Shown piece after piece: positions 2,735 to 17,181 of a stretch of DNA of 30,848 nt. Numbering within the stretch: the first letter of the stretch is position 1; the number at the start of each line of letters is the position of its first letter. A program made the position numbers and the translations under genes. Below the pieces are notes generated by a model. That model made no database searches. It was not told the DNA's origin and worked only from the letters and a program-made list of their open reading frames with translations. Location: NCBI GenBank assembly GCA_030611945.1, contig JAUWOV010000008.1:1-30848 (forward strand), in the 5' to 3' direction. This DNA is from a bacterium. Its GTDB lineage: Bacteria > JAHJDO01.

Positions 2735-3595
2735 CTAATCTTTCTCTTGTTCCCATCTGGCTATAATCTGTACAGCTTTTTTGTTTTCCGGGAATAATCC
2801 GAGAACCTGTTTGTAACAGTCTATTGCCTTTTGTGTATGTCCTTGAAATTTATACGAGAAAGCAAGGAATCTGAGTATGCCTGCTTTGTCATATTCATCC
2901 ATTTCAGCCTGTGATTTGAGAGCCTTCTCAAAATAGTATTGAGCTTTTTTATAATCCTTTAGCCTTGAAAAATAGACTATCCCAATTTGCGTAGATATTT
3001 GGTAGCCATCCGGGTTGTTTTTTATTCCCTCTTTCAAGAATTTAATGGCTTCCTCCGTTTTCCCAAGTCTAAATGCGAGCCAGTATCCTCCAACAGCGTA
3101 TGCCCTCACGTGATGAGGATTGAACGTGGTAGTAAGCTTGAACCACGGCATAAGTTCATCCTCTCTTTTACTATGCAGGTGCTCTGTAATATTCGGCTTG
3201 AGATTGTATTCAAGCTTAGCAAAGAGTTTGTCCAGTCTGTTATGCTTTAACTCGTGTCCATGCTCTGTTCCTTTGTGTTCATGTTCATGTTTGTGCTGCG
3301 TATGTCCTCCTATGCCTGCCTCTTCTAAAATATGGCAGTGTGAATGTTCAGTTACTCCCTTATGAAGATATTCGTCTGTTTTCAGCCACAACAGATCTGC
3401 GGAACCAGAAAAGACACCGCCTAAAATTTTACTTATAATTTCTCCGCCCGGAATAACAGAAACACTGCTAGCCTCAGAATAATGATAGGTTTGAAGAGGA
3501 ATCTGAAGTAACAAGACACAAAGCAACAAAGCACAAAGGCACAAAGGCACATTGTAGGGGCGGTGCTTGCCCCCGCCCGTTCCCAGTTTTTTCAC
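2735..3595 (-). CDS. Membrane-anchored TPR protein with histidine-rich loop
   Basis: Probable inner-membrane-anchored periplasmic protein of about 286 residues. I chose the GTG at 3595 because it overlaps the permease stop as GTGA, the coupling used repeatedly in this window; a GTG at 3550 is also possible, and a longer reading from 3703 would overlap the permease by 112 bp. The N-terminus has one hydrophobic segment rich in L and C (PLCLCALLLCVLLLQ), a signal anchor. A histidine-rich stretch follows (roughly positions 3245-3355) with 11 His and one Cys in about 40 residues, suggestive of transition-metal binding. The C-terminal half has TPR-like helices (for example PDGYQISTQIGIVYFSRLKD and KAGILRFLAFSYKFQGHTQK). 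Substrate is unknown. The signal-anchor coding sequence is built from dispersed repeats (see findings). Confidence 0.75.
   Translation of the reverse strand: MKKLGTGGGKHRPYNVPLCLCALLLCVLLLQIPLQTYHYSEASSVSVIPGGEIISKILGGVFSGSADLLWLKTDEYLHKGVTEHSHCHILEEAGIGGHTQHKHEHEHKGTEHGHELKHNRLDKLFAKLEYNLKPNITEHLHSKREDELMPWFKLTTTFNPHHVRAYAVGGYWLAFRLGKTEEAIKFLKEGIKNNPDGYQISTQIGIVYFSRLKDYKKAQYYFEKALKSQAEMDEYDKAGILRFLAFSYKFQGHTQKAIDCYKQVLGLFPENKKAVQIIARWEQEKD
3511..3553. repeat. TTTGTGCC-type short tandem repeat inside the TPR gene
   Basis: On the minus strand this reads as near-tandem units of TTTGTGCC and variants (TTTGTGCT, TTTGTGTC). The same unit recurs at 11413-11450 and near 15696-15708, in each case over the hydrophobic core of a signal peptide. 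Here it encodes PLCLCALLLCVLLL. Confidence 0.6.
3554..3581. repeat. G/C-rich palindromic repeat, copy 1
   Basis: The element starts GTAGGGGCGG, has a GCTTGCC core and ends CCGCCCGTT, with arms that can pair (GGGGCGG with CCGCCC). An almost identical copy in the same orientation lies at 24704-24731, inside the Rhs-like gene. Here it is translated on the minus strand as part of the N-terminal region of the TPR protein. Confidence 0.7.
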
Positions 3596-4359
3596 AACTG
3601 CTTTCTCTGAAACTTCAATGTCCCTATCAGCAGAAAGATAGATATATAAACAACAGCGTATATCGTTACTGTTATTATTACCCATGCCGGGACTGGCGGC
3701 CATTGGTGAACTATCTTTTTTGACAGGTCAAAATAATCAAGATGAGGAATGATATAATTAAGAGACTTGAGCATCCAGACAAGGAACGCTCCGCACTTAT
3801 CAAGCGCGTCTGAGATAGCTTTGCCAATCCAATGTCCCAGAATAAAATAAAGGATTGAGACTGTAACATTTGCGGCATTTGTCATAAAGGCTGACAGACA
3901 TATAACAATAGAGGATATGAGCATTAACTGAAGAATATGCAGGAATATCCCCTGTATTAAAATACCCGACACACTGCTTCCTTTAGAAAGCAGGAGAATA
4001 ATGAATATTCCCTCAAAAACCAGAAAACAGAATATAGAAATAAGCGATGTTCCAAGCCATTTTCCTATAATAAATTCAGACCTTTTTAGAGGTTTTGCCA
4101 TCAACGGATAAATCGTGCGGCTGTTCAGTTCGGTGGGCAGCTGTCTTGCTCCAACAACAACAGCAATAATTACAGTTATATAGGTAACGATAAGAAAGGA
4201 TAATTCTGTAAAATACTTTACTAATCCTGTTAGAGAGAAAAAACTTGCCATTGCAGCTACAGCCATTATTGCAACAGATAAAATAAATAAAACGTAGATT
4301 TCTTTTTTTCTGATAGATTCCTCAATTACATTTTTCGCAATAATCCATGCAGCTCTCAT
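3592..4359 (-). CDS. ABC-2 type transporter permease
   Basis: Integral inner-membrane subunit of an ABC exporter, 255 residues with about six hydrophobic segments (around residues 22-45, 50-70, 100-125, 130-160, 165-185 and 225-248). The layout resembles ABC-2/NosY-type permeases: a short cytoplasmic N-terminus, then a loop with R-Q-L-P-x-E-L-x-S-R-T-I-Y-P-L-M-A-K-P, the usual coupling segment of this family. Its start overlaps the end of the ATPase gene by 4 bp (ATGA) and its stop overlaps the GTG of the TPR gene, so the three form one operon. The substrate cannot be read from the sequence; the histidine-rich partner hints at a metal or metalloprotein-related role, but that is inference. Confidence 0.85.
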   Translation of the reverse strand: MRAAWIIAKNVIEESIRKKEIYVLFILSVAIMAVAAMASFFSLTGLVKYFTELSFLIVTYITVIIAVVVGARQLPTELNSRTIYPLMAKPLKRSEFIIGKWLGTSLISIFCFLVFEGIFIILLLSKGSSVSGILIQGIFLHILQLMLISSIVICLSAFMTNAANVTVSILYFILGHWIGKAISDALDKCGAFLVWMLKSLNYIIPHLDYFDLSKKIVHQWPPVPAWVIITVTIYAVVYISIFLLIGTLKFQRKQL

Positions 4360-5138
4360 GCTCTTTTATCCTTTATCGTCCGGACGAAAATATCTTCTAA
4401 AGAAGCTCGCCCCGAACCAGATTTATCTTGGTTCTTGGTATTAATTTTCCCAACAATTTGGTCCAGCTTCTCAGTCTTTAGAATTTGTCCTCTGTCAATT
4501 ATTCCCACTCTGTCACAAATCAGTTCTACTTCCGAAAGCTCATGCGAACTAAAAAATATGGTTTTACCTTTATTCCTGAGTTCCAGGATAATATCGCGCA
4601 TTTCTCTTTTTCCGATTGGATCAAGCCCTGAATTTGGTTCATCAAGTATCATAACGTCAGGGTCATTTATAATAGCCTGCGCAAGCCCAAGACGTTGCTG
4701 CATGCCTTTTGACAGGTTACGAATAGGAGTATTCTTTTTCCCCATTAACCCAACAATTGCCAAAACGGAGTCTATTCTACTGTTCAATGTAATTTTGTCT
4801 ATACGAAACAATTTTCCGTACATTGTGAGGATTTTGGAAGGCGTAAGATATGGATAATAATAAGCCGTTTCCGGTAAATATCCAATTCTAAACCTGTTTT
4901 TTAATGAGGAAGATTTTTCATCCAGTATAATTGCCTCGCCATTAGTAGGACGCATAAAGCCCAATAAGACATTGATAGTTGTTGTTTTCCCCGCTCCATT
5001 AGGACCTATAAATCCAAATATTTCACCTTTGTAAGCGCGCAGGTTTATGCCCTTTAAAGCAACCGTTTTTTCTCTGCCCACTCTATATTCCGCATGAAGA
5101 TTTTTAATTTCTATTACTGGTTCCACACTAAAATCCAA
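4356..5138 (-). CDS. ABC transporter ATP-binding protein
   Basis: Cytoplasmic ATPase subunit of the exporter encoded with the downstream permease, 260 residues. It has Walker A GPNGAGKTT (residues 45-53), signature LSKGMQQRLG (142-151), Walker B DVMILDEP (161-168), D-loop SGLD and the H-loop FSSHE near 203. This is the CcmA/NosF-like class that pairs with ABC-2 permeases. The longest reading begins at a TTG (5138) that lies within an AT-rich dispersed repeat; a GTG four codons later (5126) is an alternative start. Neither has a good Shine-Dalgarno sequence. The operon reads away from the pilus cluster, so its promoter must lie in the 5139-5350 region. Confidence 0.88.
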   Translation of the reverse strand: MDFSVEPVIEIKNLHAEYRVGREKTVALKGINLRAYKGEIFGFIGPNGAGKTTTINVLLGFMRPTNGEAIILDEKSSSLKNRFRIGYLPETAYYYPYLTPSKILTMYGKLFRIDKITLNSRIDSVLAIVGLMGKKNTPIRNLSKGMQQRLGLAQAIINDPDVMILDEPNSGLDPIGKREMRDIILELRNKGKTIFFSSHELSEVELICDRVGIIDRGQILKTEKLDQIVGKINTKNQDKSGSGRASLEDIFVRTIKDKRA

Positions 5139-5160
5139 AATTCGAAATTCGAATTTTTAG
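5130..5160. repeat. AT-rich dispersed repeat (AATTTTGAAATTCG family)
   Basis: Minus-strand reading contains AATTCGAATTTCGAATTTT followed by GGATTTTAG, the same vocabulary as the elements at 11354-11410, 14612-14678 and 15632-15690. It abuts the start of the ABC ATPase gene and supplies its TTG candidate start. Confidence 0.55.
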
Positions 5161-5162
5161 TA

Positions 5163-5248
5163 TTAAGTTATAAGGATTAAGAATTAAGTAAAAAACGTCA
5201 CCTACTACAAACTTAATCCTTAAAGCGAAGCGTCTTAATCCTTAATCC
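5163..5248. repeat. TTAAGGATTAAG direct and inverted repeats
   Basis: The block contains AAGGATTAAGAATTAAG (5172-5188), then the inverted forms CTTAATCCTTAA (5212-5223) and TCTTAATCCTTAATCC (5233-5248). The arms can form a long AT-rich stem. The region is non-coding and lies between the ABC operon start and the pilin control region. No function can be assigned. Confidence 0.6.
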
Positions 5249-5296
5249 TGTCTTTCTTTACGAATATACTAACATCTTATGGTATTGTCAAGACGT

Positions 5297-5338
5297 CAAA
5301 AATTTTTGCCTATATGAGCAGTATGTCAAAATATTTTG
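5297..5338. promoter_or_regulatory. Twin 12-bp palindromes, candidate PilR activator sites
   Basis: Two perfect palindromes, CAAAAATTTTTG (5297-5308) and CAAAATATTTTG (5327-5338), have centres exactly 30 bp apart, three helical turns. Each sits in a longer shared context, GTCAAAAxxTTTTGCCTA. They lie about 165-210 bp upstream of the predicted sigma-54 start site, a normal distance for NtrC-family enhancers. Binding by PilR is inference; the sites could also serve the divergent ABC operon. Confidence 0.5.
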
Positions 5339-5350
5339 CCTAACAATCAA

Positions 5351-5370
5351 CCGCCGACTTCAGTCGGCGG
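5351..5370. repeat. Perfect GC-rich inverted repeat
   Basis: CCGCCGACT and AGTCGGCGG are perfect 9-base complements separated by TC, giving a very stable small hairpin. There is no T-run on either side, so a terminator role is not supported. It resembles a dispersed genomic palindrome. Confidence 0.6.
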
Positions 5371-5399
5371 AACTTCAACCATGAAGAATTTTCGGGGAA

Positions 5400-5463
5400 G
5401 ACATCCCCCTAGTTCCGCTTGCGGCGAAACTATCCCCCTTTGAAGGGGGATTTAAGGGGATGT
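5400..5463. repeat. Nested inverted-repeat block upstream of the pilin promoter
   Basis: Outer arms ACATCCCC (5401-5408) and GGGGATGT (5456-5463) enclose an inner hairpin CCCCCTTTGAAGGGGG (5434-5449) and a GCTTGC-centred imperfect hairpin. The block ends 15 bp before the sigma-54 -24 element. It resembles a palindromic dispersed repeat; an effect on DNA bending or PilR looping is conceivable but unproven. Confidence 0.6.
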
Positions 5464-5477
5464 GCCCCTGACATCTT

Positions 5478-5493
5478 TGGCACGAAAAATGCT
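5478..5493 (+). promoter_or_regulatory. Sigma-54 (-24/-12) promoter of the pilin operon
   Basis: TGGCAC (5478-5483), five bases, then ATGCT (5489-5493). The invariant GG (5479-5480) and GC (5491-5492) are separated by exactly 10 bases, as required for RpoN promoters; only one base of the TTGCW box deviates. Transcription would start near 5504, giving a leader of about 40 nt to the pilin ATG. A sigma-54 activator of the PilR type is encoded at 29248-30612. Confidence 0.82.
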
Positions 5494-5542
5494 AGTATAT
5501 AAAATAGAAGGAAAAATTTATTGAAGAGGAGGTGAATAAGAA

Positions 5543-5995
5543 ATGATTAAATTACTGAGAAGTAAGAAAGGTTTTACGCTAGTTGAGATCATGATCGTTG
5601 TTGCGATCATCGGTCTTCTTGCAGCAATAGCCATTCCAAACTTCATCAAGTCCAGAAACCGCTCCAGAGACGCTGTATGCACAAACAACATGAAGCAGAT
5701 CGCGTCTGGTCTTGAACAGGTATGTATGGAGAATAATATGGATGCTACTACAGCTGGCGCTGGTCTTGCCTGGAGCGTAGCTCCTACATCAAATGGATGG
5801 GGCTTAGTAACTGCAGCAGGTCCACCTATAATTCACGGATACCTAAAGACAGTTCCTACATGTCCAATTAATGCAGCCAACGCTTATGTGGCGAATGCAA
5901 CAGCAGCTGGAGTGTTTCAGATTGTATGTGCAAACGCTGCAGGTCATAGCCCGAGTTTTCTGGGCAGTGTTGCTACTCCATTTCAGCTGCCATAA
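5543..5995 (+). CDS. pilA: Type IV major prepilin
   Basis: Probable major pilin of 150 residues. The leader MIKLLRSKKG precedes the prepilin peptidase site G|FTLVE, with Glu at mature position 5 and a hydrophobic alpha1 helix (IMIVVAIIGLLAAIAIP). The globular part has four cysteines (in D-A-V-C, Q-V-C, T-C-P and I-V-C) at the same places as in the next gene, suggesting two disulfides. The start is secure: GAGGAGGT lies nine bases upstream. It is the first gene after the sigma-54 promoter, the position expected of the highly expressed pilin. A GspG-like pseudopilin is the alternative, but the pilMNOPQ/pilT context favours T4P. Confidence 0.9.
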   Translation: MIKLLRSKKGFTLVEIMIVVAIIGLLAAIAIPNFIKSRNRSRDAVCTNNMKQIASGLEQVCMENNMDATTAGAGLAWSVAPTSNGWGLVTAAGPPIIHGYLKTVPTCPINAANAYVANATAAGVFQIVCANAAGHSPSFLGSVATPFQLP

Positions 5996-6022
5996 GACCA
6001 GTTGCTGAAAGTTGTAAAAGGA

Positions 6023-6078
6023 CGCAAACGGCGGCGGGGATTTCCCGCCGCTTGTGTGTCCCGCGAAAGGTGTTTGCG
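6023..6078 (+). promoter_or_regulatory. Structured leader between the two pilin genes
   Basis: A strong hairpin, GCGGCGGG (6031-6038) pairing with CCCGCCGC (6044-6051), is enclosed by a second perfect 7-bp helix, CGCAAAC (6023-6029) with GTTTGCG (6072-6078). The outer helix ends one base before the ATG of the second pilin and encloses its GAAAGG ribosome binding site. It could attenuate readthrough, stabilise the upstream pilin mRNA, or control translation of the second pilin. No T-run follows, so it is not a classical terminator. Confidence 0.55.
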
Positions 6079-6079
6079 A

Positions 6080-6535
6080 ATGATAAGAATTTTGAAAGAC
6101 AAGACAGGATTTACGATTGTTGAGATTATGATCGTTGTTACGATCGTAGGGCTTTTATTAACTATAGCTATGCCTAATTTTGTCAAATCAAGGACGAGGT
6201 CAAGAGATGCTGTATGCGCGGACAATATGAGCCAGATCGCGTCTGCTCTGAAACAGGTATGCATGGAGAAAGACCTTGACGTTGCTAATGGCGGCGCTGG
6301 ATTTGCAGTTGGAGCAATTGCGTGGAATGCTGTTCCCACGAACAATGGATGGGGAGTGGTAGGAGCGACATCTTATTTGAAAACAGCTCCTGTGTGTCCT
6401 GTTAGTACAGCCAATGCTTACACAGTGGGTTCTGACACAAAGGGTACATTTCTGATCTTGTGCCCAAACATTACAGGACATGGAGCAAAATTTAGGAGTG
6501 ATTACAGTGCGCCAAGTTATTACACAACGCAGTAA
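6080..6535 (+). CDS. Second type IV prepilin, paralogue of pilA
   Basis: A 151-residue prepilin with leader MIRILKDKTG and cleavage site G|FTIVE. I chose the ATG at 6080, residue 27 of the longer open frame, because it gives a normal 10-residue leader and has GAAAGG upstream; the frame before it is the structured intergenic segment. It aligns with the preceding pilin along its length, sharing R-S-R-D-A-V-C, Q-V-C-M-E, N-G-W-G, Y-L-K-T and four cysteines, so the pair arose by tandem duplication. It may be a minor or alternative pilin. A dedicated RNA structure separates it from the first pilin. Confidence 0.88.
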   Translation: MIRILKDKTGFTIVEIMIVVTIVGLLLTIAMPNFVKSRTRSRDAVCADNMSQIASALKQVCMEKDLDVANGGAGFAVGAIAWNAVPTNNGWGVVGATSYLKTAPVCPVSTANAYTVGSDTKGTFLILCPNITGHGAKFRSDYSAPSYYTTQ

Positions 6536-6914
6536 GACCGCTTGGAAGAGCGAGAAAGGACTGACATTTGTAGAAGTTATGGTGGCTATTCTGATTATCA
6601 GCATAGTGGCTACCAGCATACTTGTCTCATACAATCTTTCATACAGGTTCGCCATAAGGAACACTAACAGGACTGTTGCTGTTCAGATAGCTCAGGCCAC
6701 AATAGAAGAGGAAAAAAGGAATGGATATAATGGGGTTGTATCCTGGGGACCTACTGCTAATAATCCCTATCTTGGAAACACACCCAATATGACTACGCAG
6801 GTAACTGTTTCACAACCAACAACAGATGTGAGAATGGTAACTGTTGCTGTAAGCTGGACTGACAGGGATAGAACAGTAAATGAAACCTTGCAGACTCTAT
6901 TAACACAAAGATAA
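6507..6914 (+). CDS. pilV: Minor prepilin, PilV/GspI-like
   Basis: About 135 residues. The hydrophobic N-terminus after K-S-E-K-G|LTFVE carries Glu5 and a long alpha1 helix (VMVAILIISIVATSILVS), the class III signal of minor pilins that prime pilus assembly. The frame is open from an ATG at 6480, but the GTG at 6507 has AGGAG nine bases upstream and gives a leader of more typical length, so I prefer it. Either start overlaps the preceding pilin gene, indicating coupling. The Q-I-A-Q-A-T-I-E-E-E-K-R-N-G segment after the helix is typical of PilV/GspI proteins, which usually follow with A-x-x-x-A-E. Confidence 0.75.
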   Translation: MRQVITQRSKTAWKSEKGLTFVEVMVAILIISIVATSILVSYNLSYRFAIRNTNRTVAVQIAQATIEEEKRNGYNGVVSWGPTANNPYLGNTPNMTTQVTVSQPTTDVRMVTVAVSWTDRDRTVNETLQTLLTQR

Positions 6915-6916
6915 AT

Positions 6917-7447
6917 ATGGAAATTTTAAAAAAATTTAAAATTGGTAATTCAAAGGCGTATACAATAATGGAGATGACCATAGCTTCAGCATTGCTTATT
7001 ATGGTTGCTCTGTCTATTGCAATGCTTTCCATTATAGGCATGCGCATGTTTGAGAGAGGAGTTGGCCAGACAAACGTACAAAGAAGATCTCGCGTAGCGT
7101 TGGATAAGATCTCTCGCGATATACGAAATTCAACAACGACTCGCATCCTTAATAGCTATACTGATAGAACTGTAAGTATGCAGGGAGATTACATAGAAAT
7201 TGGCAATGAGGGATATTATTTTAGCGGAACAAAAATCAGGTTTATAGATAATCTTACTGCGGACAACACGGCTAGCGAGGCTGATGATAAGCCTGTTGTG
7301 GACGGAGTCGGGAAAATTGGTGGAGCGAATATTTTTACAAACGATTGGACTGATATGATTACTATTGAATTCAGCGTTACTGATCAAAGCAGAACCAGAG
7401 GGAATCAAAGCGCTGATTTTATAACAAGCGTATATAAAAGAAATTAA
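6917..7447 (+). CDS. pilW: Minor prepilin, PilW/GspJ-like
   Basis: 176 residues, starting 2 bp after the preceding stop. The leader ends N-S-K-A followed by YTIMEM, so the usual G|F cleavage pair is A|Y, but Glu5 and the alpha1 helix (IASALLIMVALSIAMLS) are intact. Downstream, Q-R-R-S-R-V-A-L-D-K-I-S-R-D-I-R matches the L-x-x-D-I-R segment typical of PilW/GspJ minor pilins. The protein probably belongs to the priming complex at the pilus tip. The Ala at -1 is tolerated by some prepilin peptidases but makes processing less certain. Confidence 0.75.
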   Translation: MEILKKFKIGNSKAYTIMEMTIASALLIMVALSIAMLSIIGMRMFERGVGQTNVQRRSRVALDKISRDIRNSTTTRILNSYTDRTVSMQGDYIEIGNEGYYFSGTKIRFIDNLTADNTASEADDKPVVDGVGKIGGANIFTNDWTDMITIEFSVTDQSRTRGNQSADFITSVYKRN

Positions 7448-7464
7448 CAAGGGGGTGAAAGGCA

Positions 7465-8802
7465 ATGATTAAGTTGCTGTATAGTAAAAATAGGTTTTGT
7501 AAAGGCACAGCTATGATAGCCGCTCTTATATTTCTCCTCATTTCCGCTATTGCAACAAGCAGCTATCTTGTTCTCGTTACAAATGAGGGCAGAATGACTG
7601 ACCAGCTGAATGACTCAGTAAGAGCATTTTATCTTGCTGAAGCTGGTGTAGAACAAGCAATATATCAGTTGAGTCAAAATCAAATGGCTCCTAACGCGGC
7701 TGATATCGGAACAGCGCTGGCTCAAATTCAAATAGGCGCTGACCCGCAGGAAACCTATTGGGTTGACATGACTTATAATACTCTTTCCGGTCCAGACAGT
7801 GTAACTGTGATATCAATAGGAAATTTTCACGGACGGACAAGAACCATAAAGGTGATGGCATCTCTTGAGTCAGCCCTTCCAAGATTTATGGTGCTTGTAG
7901 ATACAGCTAACTGGGGTTCCGGGAATGGAGCGAAGTATGGAAGAGATGACGGGGTCTCTCCACGCGGCACGCCTTTTTCTCCGGCAAACAGGATGAGGAT
8001 GTATCTGAAAGGAAATTACGCTGCTTCAGTGAATGTTGACATTTTTGGCGACCTTTTCGCTGAAGGCAATTTCTCTTCCAAAGCCAGTTCAGACGTGCAT
8101 GGAGACGCGTACCTTGGCGGGATTTTTGATAACGGCGGAATCATAGATGACGGCTGGAATATAGGAGATGGAGATCTTCCCGTTGACCTGCACACATTGC
8201 AGCCTGACCAAATAGTAGAATATCCAATACTGGACATGACGTTTTATGCGGCAAATAATGACCTGGCGCTGGTGGGAACAAAATATCTAGACTTTACGGA
8301 TAATGGCACTTCTACAACTGTAAAGGAATACAGTGATGCTTCCTATACGACGTTACTCTCAACCTCTGTATTGCCGCAGGAAGGAGTGCTTTATGTGGAT
8401 GGAGACGCGCATGTCAGGGGAACAATCAAAGGACATGTTACTGTAGTGGCATCTGCCGATATATTATTTCAGGGAGATGTAGACTATGCAAACGGCACAA
8501 GTTATTCGGACGAAAGCGATTCAGCCGCTTACCTGGCGGCAGACGACCTTTTCTTTCTCAGGCAGAATCTTAACGTTTCAGGAATATTCTATACGGCGCC
8601 AGGAGGACAATTTACATCCTCAAGTGGAGACGCTAATAAACAAACATTGAATATATATGGCAATAGGATTATGGCAACTCAAAGCAATATGGGACCGTAT
8701 AAGACTAGGAACTATTTGTACGATTCACAGATTTATAATTTCCCACCGCCGGGACTTCCTGTCAGACCAATTATCCAGTCATGGGCGGATGTAGGAAAAT
8801 AA
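7465..8802 (+). CDS. pilX: PilX-like pilus assembly protein
   Basis: 445 residues, beginning with a positively charged stretch and a single hydrophobic helix (TAMIAALIFLLISAIATSSY), then R-A-F-Y-L-A-E-A-G-V-E-Q-A, the hallmark of PilX N-terminal domains. Glu5 of classical pilins is absent, as in that family. The large C-terminal region is rich in short Gly/Asp beta units (for example GDLFAEGNFSS, DGDAHVRGTIKGHVTVVAS), resembling the beta-helical polymer-forming/pilus-associated domains found in PilX-like proteins of many uncultivated lineages. A strong ribosome binding site (AAGGGGGTG) precedes the ATG. No PilY1 is encoded next to it. Confidence 0.72.
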   Translation: MIKLLYSKNRFCKGTAMIAALIFLLISAIATSSYLVLVTNEGRMTDQLNDSVRAFYLAEAGVEQAIYQLSQNQMAPNAADIGTALAQIQIGADPQETYWVDMTYNTLSGPDSVTVISIGNFHGRTRTIKVMASLESALPRFMVLVDTANWGSGNGAKYGRDDGVSPRGTPFSPANRMRMYLKGNYAASVNVDIFGDLFAEGNFSSKASSDVHGDAYLGGIFDNGGIIDDGWNIGDGDLPVDLHTLQPDQIVEYPILDMTFYAANNDLALVGTKYLDFTDNGTSTTVKEYSDASYTTLLSTSVLPQEGVLYVDGDAHVRGTIKGHVTVVASADILFQGDVDYANGTSYSDESDSAAYLAADDLFFLRQNLNVSGIFYTAPGGQFTSSSGDANKQTLNIYGNRIMATQSNMGPYKTRNYLYDSQIYNFPPPGLPVRPIIQSWADVGK

Positions 8803-8805
8803 TAT

Positions 8806-9090
8806 ATGGAGGACAAAGTGAACATTAAATTAGTCGTAATATCAGTGCTTATCATTACCATTGTCTTAGTTGCGGTTGGATATTTTTTATTGACTGCAAG
8901 AGAAGAGCTTGTTGATACAGGCTATCATTCTCAGGTTGTAAAGCAGGACGCTGTAATAGAGGCGCAGCAGACGGAAGAGTTTGAACCATTGGAAGAACGT
9001 AAGAAAGTTATTAAAAAAGAAGCTAAGCAGGTTGAGTCAAATGACAAAAAACCTCGTTCTGAGTATAACGACATGCCTCCTATGGATTAG
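8806..9090 (+). CDS. Small bitopic membrane protein of unknown function
   Basis: 94 residues, not recognised. Residues 8-29 form one transmembrane helix (LVVISVLIITIVLVAVGYFLL). The rest is a hydrophilic, Lys/Glu-rich tail (E-E-R-K-K-V-I-K-K-E-A-K) likely disordered and ending D-M-P-P-M-D. It starts 3 bp after the PilX-like gene and precedes the pilM promoter, closing the pilin operon. A small accessory subunit of the pilus machine is plausible from position only. Confidence 0.6.
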   Translation: MEDKVNIKLVVISVLIITIVLVAVGYFLLTAREELVDTGYHSQVVKQDAVIEAQQTEEFEPLEERKKVIKKEAKQVESNDKKPRSEYNDMPPMD

Positions 9091-9101
9091 ACGTGTGGAT
9101 T

Positions 9102-9130
9102 TTGACAAAAATGTTTTGCAGTGATAGAGT
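9102..9130 (+). promoter_or_regulatory. Sigma-70-type promoter upstream of pilM
   Basis: TTGACA (9102-9107), a 17-base spacer, then TAGAGT (9125-9130), four of six matches to the -10 box. It lies in the only gap of more than 50 bp between the pilin genes and pilM, 25 bp before the ATG. This would let the assembly platform be expressed independently of the sigma-54 pilin promoter. Confidence 0.6.
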
Positions 9131-9154
9131 AATCTTAAATTTAGAAAGGTATTT

Positions 9155-10099
9155 ATGGCGATTTCAGGACTTTTCAGCGCAAAGCCTAAATCTGAAACCG
9201 GTTTAGGGCTTGATATAGGAAGCGGGACTGTTAAGGTTGTCAGACTCACAGGCAAAGGCAGCAGTGTATCATTAGACGGGGTCGGTGTGGCTGGAATAAC
9301 GGAAGATACCAAAGCCGGCGTTATCACTGCAGTCAAAAAGGCATCTGAGGAAGCGAATGTTACAACAAACAGGGTTGTTACAGGTGTTTCGGGACAATCG
9401 GTAATTGTCCGATATATCCGCGTTCCCAAAATGGCAGAAGAAGACCTTAGCGCTTCCTTGAAGTATGAAGCCGCAAAACACATTCCATTTGACATAAATG
9501 ATGTAGAAATGGACTTTCAGGTTCTGGATAGCGCGGCAAAAGACACAAAGACAATGGAGATTCTGCTTGTCGCCGCTAAGAAAGACATTATCAATGAGCG
9601 GCTGGAACTATTAAAAGCCTGCAATTTGGACACGGTTGTTATTGATGTTAATTCTTTTGCTATTGCGAACGCTTTTGAAAACGCGCTCGGTTCCGTGTTT
9701 AAGAAAAAGGATAATGCGCTCTCGCTTATAAATATCGGCACTCGTATGACAAGCATAAATATCCTTGATAACGGTGTCTCAAAGCTCACAAGGGATGTAG
9801 ATATTGGCGGAGCGGATAAAAATATCATATCTCCGCTTATCAGCGAAATACGTAAGTCATTTGATTATTATGAAAGTCAGGCTCCTGATAAAAATATTTC
9901 TGCCATATACCTGAGCGGAGGAGGTTCACAGATCCCTCAAATAAACGATATCATGCATAAAGAGATTGGGATAAAAACGCATATCTGGAACGCAGTCAGT
10001 AACCTGAAGATATCAGATGATGTCCCGGCGGAGAAAATAGAAAAACTCTATCCTATTTTGCCTGTTGCTGTCGGACTTGCTCTGAGAGGTATAAAGTGA
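9155..10099 (+). CDS. pilM: Type IV pilus assembly protein PilM
   Basis: Actin-like cytoplasmic ATPase that binds the N-terminal tail of PilN and links it to the motor complex. The 314-residue protein has the phosphate-1 motif GLDIGSGTVKVV (residues 18-29), the V-R-Y-I-R-V-P-K-M segment, the typical PilM strand L-K-Y-E-A-A-K-H-I-P-F-D-I-N-D-V, and the C-terminal adenosine loop L-S-G-G-G-S-Q-I-P. It is slightly shorter than the usual ~350. AGAAAGG lies upstream of the ATG. It overlaps pilN by GTGA. Confidence 0.92.
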   Translation: MAISGLFSAKPKSETGLGLDIGSGTVKVVRLTGKGSSVSLDGVGVAGITEDTKAGVITAVKKASEEANVTTNRVVTGVSGQSVIVRYIRVPKMAEEDLSASLKYEAAKHIPFDINDVEMDFQVLDSAAKDTKTMEILLVAAKKDIINERLELLKACNLDTVVIDVNSFAIANAFENALGSVFKKKDNALSLINIGTRMTSINILDNGVSKLTRDVDIGGADKNIISPLISEIRKSFDYYESQAPDKNISAIYLSGGGSQIPQINDIMHKEIGIKTHIWNAVSNLKISDDVPAEKIEKLYPILPVAVGLALRGIK

Positions 10100-10758: not shown

Positions 10759-11330
10759 AAAAAAACGAACGTATTGTCTTATTCGTTATTATAGCCATAG
10801 GAATTCTTGTGGGGTTTTATTATCTGGTGGAACCGCAGATCAGTCAGATTTCTCTCCTGAGAAAAAACATAGCGCAGAAAAAAGCTGAAATACAAAAAGC
10901 TAAGGATATGATAGCTAAAAAACCTCAGCTGGAACGCGAGTTTCAGGCAACGCAAAGACTGATAAATGAATATCAAGAACGTATGCCGGGCAAAGATAAA
11001 ATTCCTGATTTTTTATCCTCTCTGACAGATCTTGCCAATGAGCACAAGATTAATGTGATGTATATCAATCCCTGCAAGATAAATTTAAGCAAAGGGCAGG
11101 TATATATCGCATATCCCATAAAGCTCGGAATTGAAGGCGGTTATCATCAGATAGCAAGGTTTGTAAACGCTCTGGAGAATCTGGAAAGGTTTGTCAAAAT
11201 AAGCAGAATAAATCTCGTCTCAAACGACAAGAATAGTTTGAAGCATGAAACAGAAATCTACCTGAATATATTCATTTTTGAGGAAACTCACCCTAACCCT
11301 CTCTTGAGAAGAGAGGGGAAACGGAAATAA
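10755..11330 (+). CDS. pilO: Type IV pilus assembly protein PilO
   Basis: Bitopic partner of PilN, 191 residues: a transmembrane helix at residues ~8-25, a coiled coil (~30-75), then the periplasmic domain with M-P-G-K-D-K-I-P-D-F-L-S-S-L, typical of PilO. The last ~15 residues (T-H-P-N-P-L-L-R-R-E-G-K) are not from the PilO fold but from a palindromic repeat at 11289-11321, so the original stop has probably been displaced. This tail is a frequent repeat-derived translation product in bacterial genomes. Confidence 0.9.
   Translation: MKKNERIVLFVIIAIGILVGFYYLVEPQISQISLLRKNIAQKKAEIQKAKDMIAKKPQLEREFQATQRLINEYQERMPGKDKIPDFLSSLTDLANEHKINVMYINPCKINLSKGQVYIAYPIKLGIEGGYHQIARFVNALENLERFVKISRINLVSNDKNSLKHETEIYLNIFIFEETHPNPLLRREGKRK
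11289..11321. repeat. Palindromic repeat captured at the pilO 3' end
   Basis: TCACCCTAACCCTCTCTT, GAG loop, then AAGAGAGGGGAAA. The arms CCCTCTCTT and AAGAGAGGG pair perfectly over 9 bp with a 3-nt loop. No T-run follows, so it is not a terminator. It is translated as the C-terminal tail of PilO. Confidence 0.7.
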
Positions 11331-11351
11331 TAATAATTTGGAGTTTTAGCT

Positions 11352-12470
11352 ATGTTTAGAATTTTGAAAATTAGGGTTTTGAATTTGTTTCGGATTTCGG
11401 ATTTTCTTTCGCTGTTGTGCCTATGTGCCTTTGTAACTTTGTGCCTTCTCTTATCTTCCGGCTGTTCAAAGCCCGCTCAGAATGATAACGAAAAACAGGC
11501 GCAGAGGTCTATAAAACAAAAAACGTCAATCAAAAAACCCGAGAAGAAGACTTTTACATACAGCAGTCATGGCAAAAGGGATATATTCGTTCCTCTTGTC
11601 TCAAAGGAGGAAGGCATTATATCCGACAAAACAAAAGGTATTGTGGTTTTGAAGCTGCCTGATTTAAAGGTAGAAGGCATCCTGTTTGATAAGGATTCAG
11701 TTCCATTTGTTATTATAAACGACCGCATCCTGACCATAGGAGACAGCGTTAATGAATGCGAAATCACCTCAATAACCGCGGACGAAATAGTGCTTATATA
11801 TATGAATAAGGAATATAGCTTAAAAGTAAGCGACAGCGGAATCTCAAGCAAAGAGATTTCTTCCAGCAGCATCACTCCAAAAAAAAAAGAGGTAAAGAGC
11901 GCAGCTGCATCTAAGCAGTCTTTGAAAAAGCAGCTGGCGCAGGCAAAAGAGGAAATCAATAAACACAAGGATTCTCTATTATCCGAAAGAAAGAAAACAA
12001 TAGATGCGGCATCTGATTCTAAGAAGAAGATTCAGGAATTAAGAGATGGATATACAGAGCAATTAGCTGAAGCCAATTCAAGTATCGGTTCTCTCCAGTC
12101 AAGAATAAAATCTTTGGTTCAGGGCGAGACGGATTTAAAAAAACAGCTGGCAGAAAAAACAGAAGAAAGAATAATCATAAAGGCAATGCCTGTAGAAACA
12201 GGTTCTTTTAACGAGGAGATACAGGGAGAGATTGTAAGCGTCAACAAAAAAACAGGGATAGTTGCCATAAGCTTTGAAAAGCATAAAGATATAAGCGGAC
12301 AGAAAGGCAAAAAATTTGCTGTGTTTCATAAGAATAAGCTGATAGACAAGCTCGTAATTAAAAAAGTATATAATACGACACTGGTTGCTGGAGTTGACGT
12401 GTTTGATAATATAAAAAAAATTAAAAAAGGCGATACTGTTCAGCTTTTGAACAGGGATGTGACGGAATAG
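11352..12470 (+). CDS. pilP: PilP-like lipoprotein with coiled coil and C-terminal SH3-like domain
   Basis: 372 residues, in the pilP position between pilO and pilQ. The N-terminus is a lipoprotein signal ending L-S-S-G-C, with Cys38 as lipidation site. Residues ~60-160 resemble PilP: R-D-I-F-V-P-L-V, then L-K-V-E-G-I-L-F-D and V-I-I-N-D-R-I-L-T-I-G-D, the beta domain that contacts the secretin. Residues ~185-265 form a coiled coil. Residues ~285-370 (G-E-I-V-S-V-N-K-K-T-G-I-V to G-D-T-V-Q-L) look like a small beta-barrel of the FlgT C-terminal/SH3-like kind. It is twice the length of standard PilP, so it is a fusion. The signal peptide coding sequence is repeat-derived. Confidence 0.75.
   Translation: MFRILKIRVLNLFRISDFLSLLCLCAFVTLCLLLSSGCSKPAQNDNEKQAQRSIKQKTSIKKPEKKTFTYSSHGKRDIFVPLVSKEEGIISDKTKGIVVLKLPDLKVEGILFDKDSVPFVIINDRILTIGDSVNECEITSITADEIVLIYMNKEYSLKVSDSGISSKEISSSSITPKKKEVKSAAASKQSLKKQLAQAKEEINKHKDSLLSERKKTIDAASDSKKKIQELRDGYTEQLAEANSSIGSLQSRIKSLVQGETDLKKQLAEKTEERIIIKAMPVETGSFNEEIQGEIVSVNKKTGIVAISFEKHKDISGQKGKKFAVFHKNKLIDKLVIKKVYNTTLVAGVDVFDNIKKIKKGDTVQLLNRDVTE
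11354..11450. repeat. AT-rich plus TTTGTGCC repeat encoding the PilP-like signal peptide
   Basis: The first part reads TTTAGAATTTTGAAAATTAG, then TTTTGAATTTGTTTCGGATT, matching the copies at 14612-14678 and 15632-15690. The second part is a run of TTGTGCC/TATGTGCC/TTTGTAAC/TTTGTGCC units. Together they encode residues 2-33 of the lipoprotein signal. Confidence 0.65.
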
Positions 12471-12472
12471 GA

Positions 12473-12760
12473 ATGATGAATAGAGAAGAAATCTTTAAAA
12501 AAATTACTCAAGAACTTAAAAATCAAGGAGCGAGGAAAGTAGCTATCTTTGGTTCTTATGCCAGGGAAGAAGAAAAATCAGGAAGCGATATAGATATTAT
12601 CGTGGAGTTCTCAGAGAGAAAAAGCCTTCTTAAGCTTGTGAGTATAGAGAGAGAGTTGCATGGGGTCTTGGGAGTAAAAGTGGATTTGCTGACGGAAAAA
12701 TCTATTAGTCCATATTTAATTGATAGGATAAAGGAAGAGATGGAGGTGATTTACGGGTGA
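12473..12760 (+). CDS. mntA: MntA-like nucleotidyltransferase antitoxin
   Basis: 95-residue minimal nucleotidyltransferase. G27-S28, ten residues, then D39-x-D41 gives the GSx10DxD catalytic motif in context [15 protein letters not shown]. In characterised MntA-HepT pairs this enzyme AMPylates the toxin and neutralises it. The gene begins 2 bp after the pilP-like stop (ATG at 12473, or 12476 with AGGA better spaced) and overlaps hepT by GTGA, the order and coupling of this toxin-antitoxin family. Confidence 0.88.
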
Positions 12761-13092
12761 TTAAAGATAATTCCGTTTATTTGAATCACATGCTAGACGC
12801 TATATCCAAGATAGAAGAGTATATTTGTGACATAAAATACAAAGGATTCATGGATAATCATCTTATACAGGATGGAATAATAAGACAAATAGAGATAATA
12901 GGCGAAGCTACAAAGAGATTATCTAAAGATATTATGGAAAGGCATCCTGAGGTACCATGGAAAGATATAGCTGGAATGAGAGACAAGTTAATACACGATT
13001 ATTTTGGTGTAGACCTGGATGCTGTATGGGATACGGTTGAAAAGGACATTCCTGTTTTGAAAAACAGATTGCAATATCTTCTTAAAAAATAA
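12757..13092 (+). CDS. hepT: HepT-like HEPN ribonuclease toxin
   Basis: 111-residue all-helical HEPN (DUF86) protein. The RNase motif Rx4HxY is intact as R75-D-K-L-I-H80-D-Y82. Tyr82 is the residue equivalent to the AMPylation target in studied HepT proteins. The G-E-A-x-K-R-L motif of the family lies at 49-55. GTG start inside the mntA stop. The intact motifs suggest an active toxin rather than a relic. Its place between pilP and pilQ is unusual. Confidence 0.88.
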
Positions 13093-13111
13093 TAATAAAC
13101 GGAGGGTAGTT

Positions 13112-14530
13112 ATGAATATGAAAAAGATGTGTGTTTTGTTAGTGGTTGCAATGTGTTTTTGTATGTCAGGAGCTACTTTATATGCAGGTGAGCTGGCAGA
13201 AGGGGAAAAGATCACGCTGGACCTTAAAGACGCTGATATACGCAATGTTATAAGAATGCTTTCACATAAGGGGAATGTAAATATAGTTGCTGCGAAGGAT
13301 GTGAAGGGGAATGTTACGGTCAGACTGCAGGATGTGGGCTGGGAGCAGGCGTTGGAAACGATACTTGATGTCAGCGGGTACGCTTATGAACGGAAAGGGA
13401 ATCTGATAAAGGTTATGACAGCGGAGAAGATGAAAAAAATAAAACAGGAACAGCTTGCCATTAAGGAAGCTACGAAAAAGGAAGCGGAATTAATAACAAA
13501 AATCTTTTCTCTGAATTTTGCAAGTGTTTGTTCTCTGAAGAAATCAGTTGAGAAAATGCTCTCGTCAAGAGGAAAAATTGAGAGCGACGGACGCACAAAT
13601 ACATTAATAGTTACTGATATTCAGGAGAATATTGATAAAATAGGGGAAATTACCAAGAGGTTGGATGCCAGAACTCCTCAGGTTCTTATTGAAGCGGCTA
13701 TTATAGATGTGAAAATAACAGGGCAGACCAAGTACGGCATTGACTGGGATTTAGAAAAAATTACTGGAGGAACAAACATAAAGATGGGGACAGCAAAGAC
13801 TGAGGGTTGGTTCTCTCAGGGGCTAACTACAACTTCAGGAGGTCTCCAGCATGCCATTACCAACTACAATGTTGGTCAGTGGAATATCGGAGCAATTCTT
13901 CAATGGCTAAGATATAACGCAGATGTGGAAATACTTGCCAGACCCAGGCTTTTAGTTCTTGATAACCATGAGGCGAACATAAAAATAACAGAGAGTATCC
14001 CATATACAAAAATTTCAACTAATGCTGAGGGAACACAGACGTCAACAATTGACTTTAAAGAGGTGGGAACATATCTTACTGTAAGACCTCACATAACGAA
14101 TGACGGGTTTGTCTCCATGGTTGTTAAGCCGAAACATAGTTTTTCAGTAGGTGAATATAGTGGCGAACCTATAATAGACGAACGCTCATTAGAGACGAAT
14201 TTACTGACCAAGGATGGTCGTATGGTTATAGTTGGCGGGCTCAGGCGAAATTATAACACGATTACTGTGTATAAAGTACCTATACTCGGAGATATTCCAT
14301 TGCTTGGATATCTTTTTAAAAAGAATACGACTGAGAAAACGAGGATGGAATTGATTATTCTTATCACACCCACCATTGTAACAGAGAAGACTGAGTTGAC
14401 TGAAGAGGAAAAAGCAAGGGTTAAGCAAATGGATGAAACATGGGAGAAAACAAATCCGGATAAGAAAATCCCTTATAAAATATGGAGAGGAACTGATATA
14501 AATCTAAACATTGATAAAATATCAAGATAA
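13112..14530 (+). CDS. pilQ: Type IV pilus secretin PilQ
   Basis: Outer-membrane secretin, 472 residues. A signal peptide (MNMKKMCVLLVVAMCFCMSG, cut near A-T-L-Y-A) is followed by an STN domain (L-D-L-K-D-A-D-I-R-N-V-I-R-M-L), then an N1 domain (~125-200, with R-T-N-T-L-I-V-T-D). The C-terminal secretin barrel has V-G-T-Y-L-T-V-R-P-H-I and the signature V-P-I-L-G-D-I-P-L-L-G-Y-L-F from residue 389. It is shorter than proteobacterial PilQ because the AMIN domains are absent. GGAGGG precedes the ATG. A gap of 168 bp follows. Confidence 0.93.
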   Translation: MNMKKMCVLLVVAMCFCMSGATLYAGELAEGEKITLDLKDADIRNVIRMLSHKGNVNIVAAKDVKGNVTVRLQDVGWEQALETILDVSGYAYERKGNLIKVMTAEKMKKIKQEQLAIKEATKKEAELITKIFSLNFASVCSLKKSVEKMLSSRGKIESDGRTNTLIVTDIQENIDKIGEITKRLDARTPQVLIEAAIIDVKITGQTKYGIDWDLEKITGGTNIKMGTAKTEGWFSQGLTTTSGGLQHAITNYNVGQWNIGAILQWLRYNADVEILARPRLLVLDNHEANIKITESIPYTKISTNAEGTQTSTIDFKEVGTYLTVRPHITNDGFVSMVVKPKHSFSVGEYSGEPIIDERSLETNLLTKDGRMVIVGGLRRNYNTITVYKVPILGDIPLLGYLFKKNTTEKTRMELIILITPTIVTEKTELTEEEKARVKQMDETWEKTNPDKKIPYKIWRGTDINLNIDKISR

Positions 14531-14540
14531 ATGAAGAAGC

Positions 14541-14678
14541 GTAAATTCGAAGCACGAAGCACGAAATACGAAACAATATCAAATGACCAAAATATAAATG
14601 TTCAAAACAACGTTTTGAATTTTGAAAATTTGAATTTAGAATTTGTTTAGGATTTCGATATTCGGATTTCGGATTTTT
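14541..14678. repeat. AT-rich dispersed repeat in the pilQ downstream gap
   Basis: The first part is a run of CGAAGCACGAAGCACGAAAT-type units, the second TTTTGAATTTTGAAAATTTG then GAATTTGTTTAGGATTTCG and two CGGATTTC units. This copy is non-coding, unlike the related copies at 11354 and 15632. Nothing else is visible in the 14531-14698 gap except AAGGAG before the next ATG. Confidence 0.65.
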
Positions 14679-14698
14679 AAAAATAAGGAGCTATCACT

Positions 14699-15619
14699 AT
14701 GAATAAAAACAAAGATATGTCGGTAACAAAGACGCATGCTCGTCATAATATTCTTATAAACATTGCTCTTATAATTACTATGCTGATATTGATAGGAGCG
14801 TGTGTTTTTTTAGGCACATACGCATTATCATGGGATAAGGTTGTGCTTTATGTCAGCATGGGTATTCTGCTTGTTGTTATAGCATTCCTGATGTTTCTGA
14901 TTAAGAAGATTAATACGAATGTGGTGAAGATGATGGCAAAAGCTAAAATAGCGGCTGATCCGGAACTGGAAGAGATAGGAATAGATGAATTAAGCGCCTC
15001 ATTGAATAAAGTTACAAAAAGACTTATGGGAGATATGTCCGACCTTTATCAGACTGAGGCAAAAATAAGCGGTCTCAACCATGAGATCAATAGACTGCTT
15101 GAAAAAGCCAAAGCATTGACCATTACAGATAAATTAACGGGCTTGTATAACTTCAAATATTATGAGGAATATTTGGCGGAAGAGCTGAAACGGGCGGCTA
15201 TGTATGAACGTCCGTGTTCTATAATTGGGTTTGACATTGATAATCTGGATATATATTTGAAGAAATTCGGCGGGAATATTAAGAATAAGATCCTAAAGAA
15301 GATTGCAGGCATCCTGAGGGAGAACGCAAGAGATATTGATAAGATAGCCCGCCTCAAAGATACCGCATTCTGCATTATTCTTCCTGAGATCAATAAAAAG
15401 GAAGCTTATGCTCTTGCTGAAAAGATAAGAAAAGCGGTTGCAAGTGAATCCATCCCGGACGCAAAGAACATAGTGGAGAATTCAAAGATCACTGTAAGCG
15501 GAGGAGTGGTCGCAAATCCGATTGACGGTGATGCTATAGAAGAATTAAACAATAAACTATATCGCGCAATAGCGATGGCAGTGAAAGAGCATGGAAACAA
15601 AGTGATCATGTTTCCATGA
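14699..15619 (+). CDS. Membrane protein with degenerate GGDEF domain retaining the I-site
   Basis: 306 residues: two transmembrane helices (~20-45 and ~52-72), a linker/coiled coil (~80-140), then a GGDEF-family domain beginning I-T-D-K-L-T-G-L-Y-N. The catalytic GGDEF is replaced by K-D-T-A-F (220-224), so cyclase activity is not expected. The inhibitory-site motif RxxD is intact (R211-D-I-D214), exactly five residues before the signature as in active family members. That pattern fits a c-di-GMP receptor of the PelD/PopA kind. Its paralogue is the next gene, overlapped by ATGA. AAGGAG supports the start. Confidence 0.82.
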   Translation: MNKNKDMSVTKTHARHNILINIALIITMLILIGACVFLGTYALSWDKVVLYVSMGILLVVIAFLMFLIKKINTNVVKMMAKAKIAADPELEEIGIDELSASLNKVTKRLMGDMSDLYQTEAKISGLNHEINRLLEKAKALTITDKLTGLYNFKYYEEYLAEELKRAAMYERPCSIIGFDIDNLDIYLKKFGGNIKNKILKKIAGILRENARDIDKIARLKDTAFCIILPEINKKEAYALAEKIRKAVASESIPDAKNIVENSKITVSGGVVANPIDGDAIEELNNKLYRAIAMAVKEHGNKVIMFP

Positions 15620-17181
15620 TAAGTAATCAATGTTTAAGATTTTTGAAAATTAGGATTTTGAATTTGTTTAGAGTTTTTGGTTTCAGATTTTCTTTAGCTT
15701 TGTGCCTTATTTCTTGCTCAAAAACTGCGCAGAGAGAATATCAGGGCTTAGAATTAGGACCCAGCAACGGGGAAATAATATCCATATCCAAGAATTCATC
15801 CGCTGGAAAATCAGAATTAAAAAAAGGAGACAGAATAGTAAATATTGACGGCGAAACCGTTGTCAACTGGAACCATGAAGCGCTGATGAACGCATTGAGA
15901 GCGCAGAAAGGAAAGGAACTGCGATTGGCAGTAGAAAGAGATATTTTAGTAACTATCATCAATATTCCACGAACAACTAAAAAGGGACTTGGAGTAAAGA
16001 TAGAAACAGTTCCTGAAGGAATAACAATAACGGATGTTACAAAAGACAGCGCATCATATATAGCAGGATTGAAAACAGGAGATATAATAACTGAGATAGC
16101 CGAAAAATCCCTGAAAGGGATGAAAATGTCGGATGTAATAGAAATTATTAAGCAAAATTCCAGTGGGAAGATGGCTACGGTAATCAGGAGGAATATTGTT
16201 TTGCCTGTAGCCAAAGCTATAATCAAAGCGCCCGTTGAGGGAAAACAGGTTTCCGAAATAAAAAAACCAGCAGAGAGAGCGAATATAATTTCTTTTTTGT
16301 ATCTCATTATTATGCTTTTAATACTTACCGTTGTCTCTCTTGCATTTTTAATGAAAAGACTCAGTCACGGCGTAACGATGCATATGCCGTCAGCAGGTCA
16401 TAATACTGCTGTAATTGAAAATTTGAACGAAGTAAAACTGGACGAGATTAAACAGGCTATAGCGGGGATTCAACAGGCAGATATTAATTTGTCGGATTTA
16501 TCGGATAAAATCGCAGAAAAGCTTAAGAAAAATTTTCAGGAAAATTCATTAGATCAGGACAAACTTGTTGAGAAGATCAAGAAAGGGATGGAGATTTCCG
16601 AAAAGCAGAATATGCCGGATTTTTCTGAAATAGACACAAAGATAGAGAAGCTTCACTATGAAATTAACAGAATGTTTGAAAAAGCCAATGCTATGGCAAT
16701 CACAGACAAACAGACAGGTCTGTTTAACGATGAATATTATCGTGAATATTTGAATGAGGAATTGAAGCGCGCAGCCATGTATGAATATCCGTGCTCTATT
16801 GTCAGGTTTGACGTTGATAATCTGGATGTGTATTCAAAGACGTTTGGAGAGGATGTTAAAAACGAAATTCTGAGAAAAGTCGCGTCTGTTTTAAAGGAGA
16901 ATGTCAGAAACATTGACAAAATAGCGCGATGGAAAGATGCATCGTTTTCCATTGTTCTCCCTAAAACAAATAAAAAAGTTGCCGCCTCCTTTGCTGAAAG
17001 AACGCAAAAGGCAATTGCTTCCGAGCCTATGACGGACGAGAAAAACATGATAAAAGATACAAAGGTTACTGTAATCGCAGGAGCGGTTTCAAGTCCGATT
17101 GACGGCAGCGGCGAAAAGGAGTTAAGCGAGAAATTATCTCAGGTAATAGAACAGGCAAGAAAGAAAGGAATAACAGGGTAA
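15616..17181 (+). CDS. Lipoprotein with two PDZ domains, TM helix and degenerate GGDEF domain
   Basis: 521 residues. A lipoprotein signal ends L31-I-S-C34. Two PDZ domains follow (~45-115 and ~120-200; for example S-E-L-K-K-G-D-R-I-V-N-I-D-G-E and A-G-L-K-T-G-D-I-I-T-E-I), a transmembrane helix (~226-247), a coiled linker, and a GGDEF-like domain paralogous to that of the preceding gene. The signature is K-D-A-S-F (440-444) instead of GGDEF, while RxxD is conserved (R431-N-I-D434). Predicted topology is PDZ in the periplasm and the nucleotide-binding domain in the cytoplasm, a transmembrane signalling layout. The ATG overlaps the previous stop. The signal peptide region is a dispersed repeat. 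Confidence 0.8.
   Translation: MISNQCLRFLKIRILNLFRVFGFRFSLALCLISCSKTAQREYQGLELGPSNGEIISISKNSSAGKSELKKGDRIVNIDGETVVNWNHEALMNALRAQKGKELRLAVERDILVTIINIPRTTKKGLGVKIETVPEGITITDVTKDSASYIAGLKTGDIITEIAEKSLKGMKMSDVIEIIKQNSSGKMATVIRRNIVLPVAKAIIKAPVEGKQVSEIKKPAERANIISFLYLIIMLLILTVVSLAFLMKRLSHGVTMHMPSAGHNTAVIENLNEVKLDEIKQAIAGIQQADINLSDLSDKIAEKLKKNFQENSLDQDKLVEKIKKGMEISEKQNMPDFSEIDTKIEKLHYEINRMFEKANAMAITDKQTGLFNDEYYREYLNEELKRAAMYEYPCSIVRFDVDNLDVYSKTFGEDVKNEILRKVASVLKENVRNIDKIARWKDASFSIVLPKTNKKVAASFAERTQKAIASEPMTDEKNMIKDTKVTVIAGAVSSPIDGSGEKELSEKLSQVIEQARKKGITG
15632..15708. repeat. AT-rich repeat encoding the PDZ-GGDEF lipoprotein signal peptide
   Basis: GTTTAAGATTTTTGAAAATT, then AGGATTTTGAATTTGTTTAG and a terminal TTTAGCTTTGTGCC. 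It aligns with the 11354 copy both in DNA and in translation: F-L-K-I-R-I-L-N-L-F-R here, I-L-K-I-R-V-L-N-L-F-R there. Confidence 0.65.

Follow-up and report, generated by a model that had tools for sequence, protein, structure and literature searches.

The window analyzed here is a 30,848-nucleotide stretch of contig JAUWOV010000008.1 (assembly GCA_030611945.1, lineage JAHJDO01). It carries three genes for predicted exported proteins whose N-terminal leaders are written in short dispersed repeats: a PilP/GspB-like lipoprotein, a PDZ-PDZ-GGDEF lipoprotein (PDZ-GGDEF), and a tetratricopeptide repeat (TPR) protein. An earlier interpretation made from the DNA letters (the sequence-only reading) had located these N-termini, and we confirmed them at their positions with corrections to their composition: the PilP/GspB-like leader consists of repeats A and B, that of PDZ-GGDEF of repeat A and one exact repeat B unit, and that of the TPR protein of repeats C and B, with no A. 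Matches at non-orthologous sites elsewhere in the genus cover 83-100% of these leaders; two repeat-free leaders had no such matches. All comparisons used the genome from which the window comes (G000, 1.66 Mb) and four genomes of the same genus (G001-G004).

The PilP/GspB-like gene lies on the forward strand (11352-12470), and its product contains a T2SSB domain (residues 102-158) that scores just below the Pfam cut-off. A fragment of repeat A (11352-11404) encodes its n-region (MFRILKIRVLNLFRISDF), followed by four octamers of repeat B (GTTGTGCC TATGTGCC TTTGTAAC TTTGTGCC; 11414-11445) that encode the hydrophobic core and, 3' of these, by a lipobox (LSSGC, Cys codon 11463-11465). The ATG stands at the boundary of repeat A, with a non-repeat GGAG just upstream. 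The G000 protein is about twice as long as those of its relatives, and its C-terminal half (residues ~176-372) matches a separate family (G000:C72, G002:C75, G003:C113, G004:C32), which suggests a gene fusion.

The PDZ-GGDEF gene (15616-17181, forward strand) begins at an ATG that overlaps the upstream TGA (ATGA) and is situated 5' of, and outside, repeat A. Its coding sequence contains a repeat A fragment (about 15630-15690) and a single exact repeat B unit (15699-15706) before the predicted lipobox Cys codon (15715-15717). In G000, the region 14699-17181 comprises a GGDEF gene followed by PDZ-PDZ-GGDEF; the same place is occupied by two plain GGDEF genes in G002 and by one in G004, and the PDZ part appears to be specific to G000. 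The TPR gene lies on the reverse strand (2735-3607), where its GTG (3607) overlaps the stop codon of an upstream ABC permease gene (GTGA), upstream of both of its repeats; this overlap is conserved in G000, G001, and G002. Repeat C (3552-3581, reverse strand) encodes the n-region GTGGGKHRPYN, and a repeat B array (3511-3551, reverse strand) encodes the hydrophobic core (VPLCLCALLLCVL) of the N-terminal anchor. Starts downstream of the repeats, which the sequence-only reading had named as an outcome that would undo it, are contradicted by these overlaps for PDZ-GGDEF and the TPR protein, nor did such a start emerge for the PilP-like protein.

The PilP-like and PDZ-GGDEF leaders share an A-B junction (GATTTTCTTTCGCTGTTGTGCC, 11400-11421, forward strand) that recurs in the five genomes only at 15686-15706, so we count the pair as one event rather than two. 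Both leaders continue with C-S-K-x-A-Q. Lying about 4 kb apart, one was probably copied from the other, judging by this shared junction. The nearly identical translations noted earlier are therefore real, but they do not represent independent insertions. The copy at 14541-14678 (forward strand) proved, as had been proposed, to be non-coding: it is a full-length repeat A (~137 bp) in the gap that separates the secretin gene from the GGDEF gene, and its coding frame is interrupted by stops.

Repeat families of the genus

The genus has six or more families of short repeats scattered through its genomes, several of them made of 7- or 8-base units; they collect in intergenic DNA and at the ends of genes. 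Repeat A, ~137 bp long, is an imperfect palindrome in which most of the sequence consists of 7-base units (AAATTCGAAGCACGAA...TTCGGATTTCGGATTT). We found 33 matches in G000 (E<=0.01), 19 of them near full length, as well as at least 40 in G002 and at least 35 in G004 among the matches listed, three in G001, and none in G003. Repeat B consists of arrays of TTTGTGCC-like octamers, with 31 matches in G000 (<=1 mismatch) compared to none for the reversed sequence, and repeat C, GTAGGGGCGGGGCTTGCC plus a continuation, has 20 matches in G000 compared to none for the same kind of control, 24 in G001, and 1-7 in the others. These counts bear out the proposal that the units are dispersed and not chance resemblances. 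Repeat E is made of TTCAAAA heptamers and repeat F of GACCACA/ATAGACC heptamers.

The termini of repeat A, AAATTCGAAGCACGAA and TTCGGATTTCGGATTT, pair with one another as terminal inverted repeats or a hairpin. As single-stranded DNA the repeat folds into a strong hairpin (-27.2 kcal/mol, z -4.8). In the genus, 47 full copies can be aligned end to end; across copies, 87% of cells are paired. Most hairpin pairs are invariant and seven show a change on both sides, so covariation is weak evidence either way. Repeat A shares with miniature inverted-repeat transposable elements (MITEs) these terminal repeats and a short, dispersed, multi-copy form devoid of transposase coding, and the repeats are presumably mobile. 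No target-site duplication was evident by eye, without a systematic scan, in the 47 aligned copies or in filled-empty pairs of the pilin-type genes pil3 and pil6, and Rfam returned no RNA-family match in the window. A Y1 (REP-type) transposase, the only mobiliser searched for, was uninformative: each of the five genomes has Y1 transposases, even G003 with no repeat A, so they do not track its presence.

The repeat A core was also found in metagenome-assembled genomes (MAGs) labelled Aminicenantes, Deltaproteobacteria/Desulfobacterales, Patescibacteria, and Bacteroidales, where the A-like copies are mostly intergenic. A possible case from another phylum comes from a deltaproteobacterial MAG (L225, JACRCK010000337.1), in which an A-like repeat is joined in frame to an open reading frame (ORF) whose product resembles a substrate-binding protein and has a hydrophobic N-terminus.

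The coding properties of these units bear on what they can supply to a leader. Whichever of the three frames of a strand is read, the 7- and 8-base units yield one and the same peptide: FVPLCLCA from one strand of repeat B and GTKAQRHK from its other strand. Arrays of A, B, and F have no stops in the frames used. Taking the best 15-residue mean, repeat B reaches a hydrophobicity of 2.75, like that of a signal-peptide core, and repeat A 1.54. The earlier claim that the units encode hydrophobic runs thus stands for B in all three frames of one strand and is weak for A, which mainly gives a basic n-region. Having core hydrophobicity, B is able to stand in for a core, whereas A, which falls short of it, adds length to a basic n-region or a prepilin leader; in predicted translation, B supplies the hydrophobic core of the TPR and PilP-like proteins and A mostly extends the n-region.

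Leader turnover and landing sites

We compared the leaders with their orthologs, including those of two pseudopilin operons that were gathered by orthology and not through their repeat content. The TPR anchor reads MKKLGTGGGKHRPYNVPLCLCALLLCVLLLQIPLQ in G000 (C and B), MRKSKLCASVPLCLCALLFCALLLQIPLQ in G001 (B), MRNTQICFGFRISDLLKLFTLLLIAILLQIPLQ in G002 (A heptamers), and MPKIIFLILLLLAVILLQIPLQ in G004, where it contains no repeat. The PilP-like leader is built of A and B in G000, two copies of C in G001, and a short piece of A in both G002 and G004. GspJ carries a full repeat A in G000 and G002 and repeat C in G001, and begins simply MKKG in G003 and MRKG in G004. The leader of pil3 is a full A (64 residues) in G002, repeat E in G004, and short elsewhere (e.g. 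MANKRMSG); in pil4, A fills the leader of G002 and E that of G004, G001 has a mixed filling, and G000 and G003 read MKNRA/MRNRA. G001, G002, and G004 have the pil4 start codon and the flank upstream of it in common. In pil2, repeat F fills the leader in G000 and E in G002, the others being short (e.g. MRKRSG), and pil5 has F in G004 and E in G002.

Pseudopilin leaders have thus turned over among at least five repeat families, and the phenomenon is broader than the sequence-only reading described. Between G002 and G004 the mature parts are 75-95% identical, yet among the leaders compared seven or more have different fillings. Fillings track the repeat content of the genome: A-built leaders occur in G000, G002, and G004, C-built leaders in G000 and G001, and none built of A in G003. 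The start codon and the flank outside the repeat are conserved in pil4, pil6, pil2, pil5, and the TPR gene, and the indels within shared repeats (18, 21, and 33 nt) are all multiples of three. Conserved starts and frame-keeping indels imply translation, and the repeat units are very probably translated as leaders. Some insertions are shared by separate assemblies: those in pil6, the LysM gene, and the PilP-like gene by G002 and G004, and that in GspJ by G000 and G002.

To see where repeats land in genes, we surveyed 169 ORFs from the window and from loci fetched by orthology. Dispersed repeats were present at 18 of 64 prepilin starts (two of them borderline), at the PilP-like and PDZ-GGDEF starts, in one PilM/GspL-like family, and at a few 3' ends. 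The TPR start was missed, as the ORF caller began further upstream. In 338 gene-middle windows, covering part of each gene, there was no credible repeat match, the single match falling in a probably spurious antisense ORF. An exploratory Fisher test of prepilin starts (leaving out the two borderline ones) against cytosolic starts gave p = 0.010; the counts lack independence, and some of the class labels were set by hand once the hits were known. Among the 3' ends, that of the PilO-like gene in the window is written in repeat D (CTCACCCTAACCCTCTC...GAGAGGGGA, 11283-11322, forward strand), which forms the protein's C-terminal tail (THPNPLLRREGKRK), so the 3' ends of genes have been invaded too.

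Long, stop-free fusions of repeat A in the genus fall into ~11 families, which we grouped by reading and named from Pfam where tested. About nine are exported types (amidase, NlpC/P60 lipoprotein, LysM-glycosidase, PilP, PDZ-GGDEF, GspJ, pil3, pil4, and pil6) and two are not (PilZ-type and PilM-type).

Interpretation and rival explanations

Taken together, these observations make it likely that dispersed repeats repeatedly occupy existing export leaders, replace one another there, and rewrite them while the mature part stays unchanged. In a gene for an exported protein, a repeat that lands downstream of the start codon but ahead of the conserved mature part would persist, given that the leader may accept nearly all fillings of basic or hydrophobic character and is either removed, as a prepilin leader or signal peptide, or serves as a mere anchor. 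Removal by signal or prepilin peptidase would leave the mature protein unharmed by the filling. Repeat A would extend the basic n-region or prepilin leader and repeat B could replace the core, and later insertion, deletion, and copying would exchange the fillings, so that one and the same leader is written in different repeats from one sister species to the next.

Several observations weigh against this account. Most copies of repeat A are intergenic. A PilM/GspL-like family of cytosolic type has a repeat N-terminus; the housekeeping enzyme IspG of G000 (L029, G000:C83, 888-1982, reverse strand) contains an internal heptamer tract encoding NPKSEIRNPK near residue 150; and the Rhs/YD-repeat gene of the window (19448-25510) holds internal C-like copies at 24408-24443 and 24702-24733, one encoding VGAGLASARYYY. 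Leaders are therefore not the sole site at which repeats are tolerated. In pil5 and pil6 of G001 and G003 and pil5 of G000, which carry repeats D and G, the repeat is directly followed by an ATG with a strong Shine-Dalgarno sequence, and in GspK of G000 an ATG is retained after repeat B; the starts of these genes may lie downstream of the repeat. The designation of leaders, like their putative cleavage, is based on motifs and hydrophobicity, and all five genomes are fragmented, multi-contig MAGs of one genus, in which orthologous cases are not independent.

The post-repeat ATGs of pil5, pil6, and GspK would be expected if the repeats were untranslated leader-mRNA or intergenic insertions whose open frames are accidental. 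The PilZ-type genes (G000 C36, G002 C127, and G004 C71) fit this as well, with an in-frame A extension and a plausible later start at MTNLES. As a general explanation it is nevertheless unlikely, since the native start lies outside the repeat in TPR, PDZ-GGDEF, pil2, pil3, pil4, and pil6, the A cases offer no credible start between the repeat and the mature part, indels within shared repeats keep the frame, and the TPR and PilP-like proteins would lose their hydrophobic core or lipobox leader. Nor do false starts produced by misassembly seem a realistic source of the pattern: short repeats are typical mis-join points and the assemblies have many contigs, but the genes on either side of the repeats form the same conserved operon in several genomes, the frames are open, and the shared insertions recur in separately assembled genomes.

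The sequence-only reading held that insertion had endowed previously non-exported proteins with new export signals. Repeat B is indeed a strong hydrophobic run in all three frames, and PDZ-GGDEF has no repeat-free ortholog in the genus, the GGDEF genes of relatives at this place lacking the PDZ part. However, the relatives of TPR, PilP, GspJ, GspK, and pil1-pil6 are already predicted to be exported with ordinary or differently filled leaders, and the PDZ-GGDEF leader was seemingly copied from that of PilP. We consider such an origin very unlikely; because orthologs without repeats already carry export leaders, the repeats rewrite existing leaders instead of opening new routes of export. Finished leaders might also have spread by recombination from gene to gene, with the repeats as passengers or as the source of homology. 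Besides the unique A-B junction and the common C-S-K-x-A-Q, the FRICSTRA that follows A in both pil3 and pil4 of G002 points this way. Yet most leader repeats match many unrelated, mostly intergenic sites, and orthologous fillings differ in family, length, and breakpoints, so that copying is a less than probable account of the pattern as a whole, though not a negligible one.

Relation to known elements and neighboring observations

Dispersed repeats in bacterial genes are usually seen as rare accidents or as selfish DNA in metabolic enzymes. The sequence-only reading knew of no precedent for repeats as a source of signal peptides, but there is one: in Yersinia, the hairpin-forming dispersed repeat RU-2/YPAL codes for the first 30 residues of the predicted signal peptide of YPO1552, whose homologs in other genera have unrelated signal peptides (Delihas 2007, PMC2759123, PMC2229807). 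The TPR, PilP-like, and pseudopilin leaders described here share this trait, as judged by motifs and hydrophobicity, with repeat-built leaders in some genomes and unrelated leaders in homologs. While YPO1552 is one locus whose function is unknown, here many leaders and several unrelated repeat families are involved, the genes are conserved ones of type II secretion and type IV pilus type, and replacement is visible between sister species. Rickettsia palindromic elements, 100-150 bp dispersed repeats, lie in frame in many unrelated genes, where they are apparently tolerated (Ogata et al. 2000; PMC2229807, PMC10969869). Going by their description, repeat A resembles them in its in-frame presence in ~11 gene families; those elements are described from unrelated metabolic genes, whereas the fusions here are concentrated in cleaved or anchoring leaders. 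The principle is thus already known.

Like REP/REPIN elements and other MITEs, repeat A is small, non-autonomous, hairpin-forming, and mostly intergenic; no mobiliser was linked to it in a search for Y1 transposases, and no target-site duplication was evident by eye. Thymine-rich non-coding DNA readily codes for hydrophobic segments and can give rise to de novo membrane proteins (Vakirlis et al. 2020, PMC7005711), but in our case a dispersed repeat is added to an existing exported bacterial protein and no gene is born. In the literature searched, which covered few subscription papers, we did not find recurrent, multi-family turnover in conserved secretion- or pilus-type genes between sister species, and work on prepilin leaders and signal-peptide indels offered nothing closer than Delihas 2007. 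What is new is that repeats turn over recurrently in secretion machinery that is itself conserved.

Close relatives carry filled, empty, and differently filled alleles, a natural series that bears on how few constraints a signal peptide or prepilin leader has to satisfy, and the pattern suggests that leader processing shields proteins from repeat insertion. Whether cleaved leaders are a general safe landing site for bacterial repeats, driving very fast leader turnover also in other phyla with related repeats, is a wider proposition to which we give slightly less than even weight. Automatic annotation of start codons in such genomes calls for care.

Among the pseudopilin loci, the GspG region of G004 (L285, G004:C32, 5599-7467, reverse strand) is a 622-residue ORF that opens with a GspG-like start (MSKIKVQMSKKGF) and then diverges, which perhaps reflects an insertion in, or disruption of, gspG.

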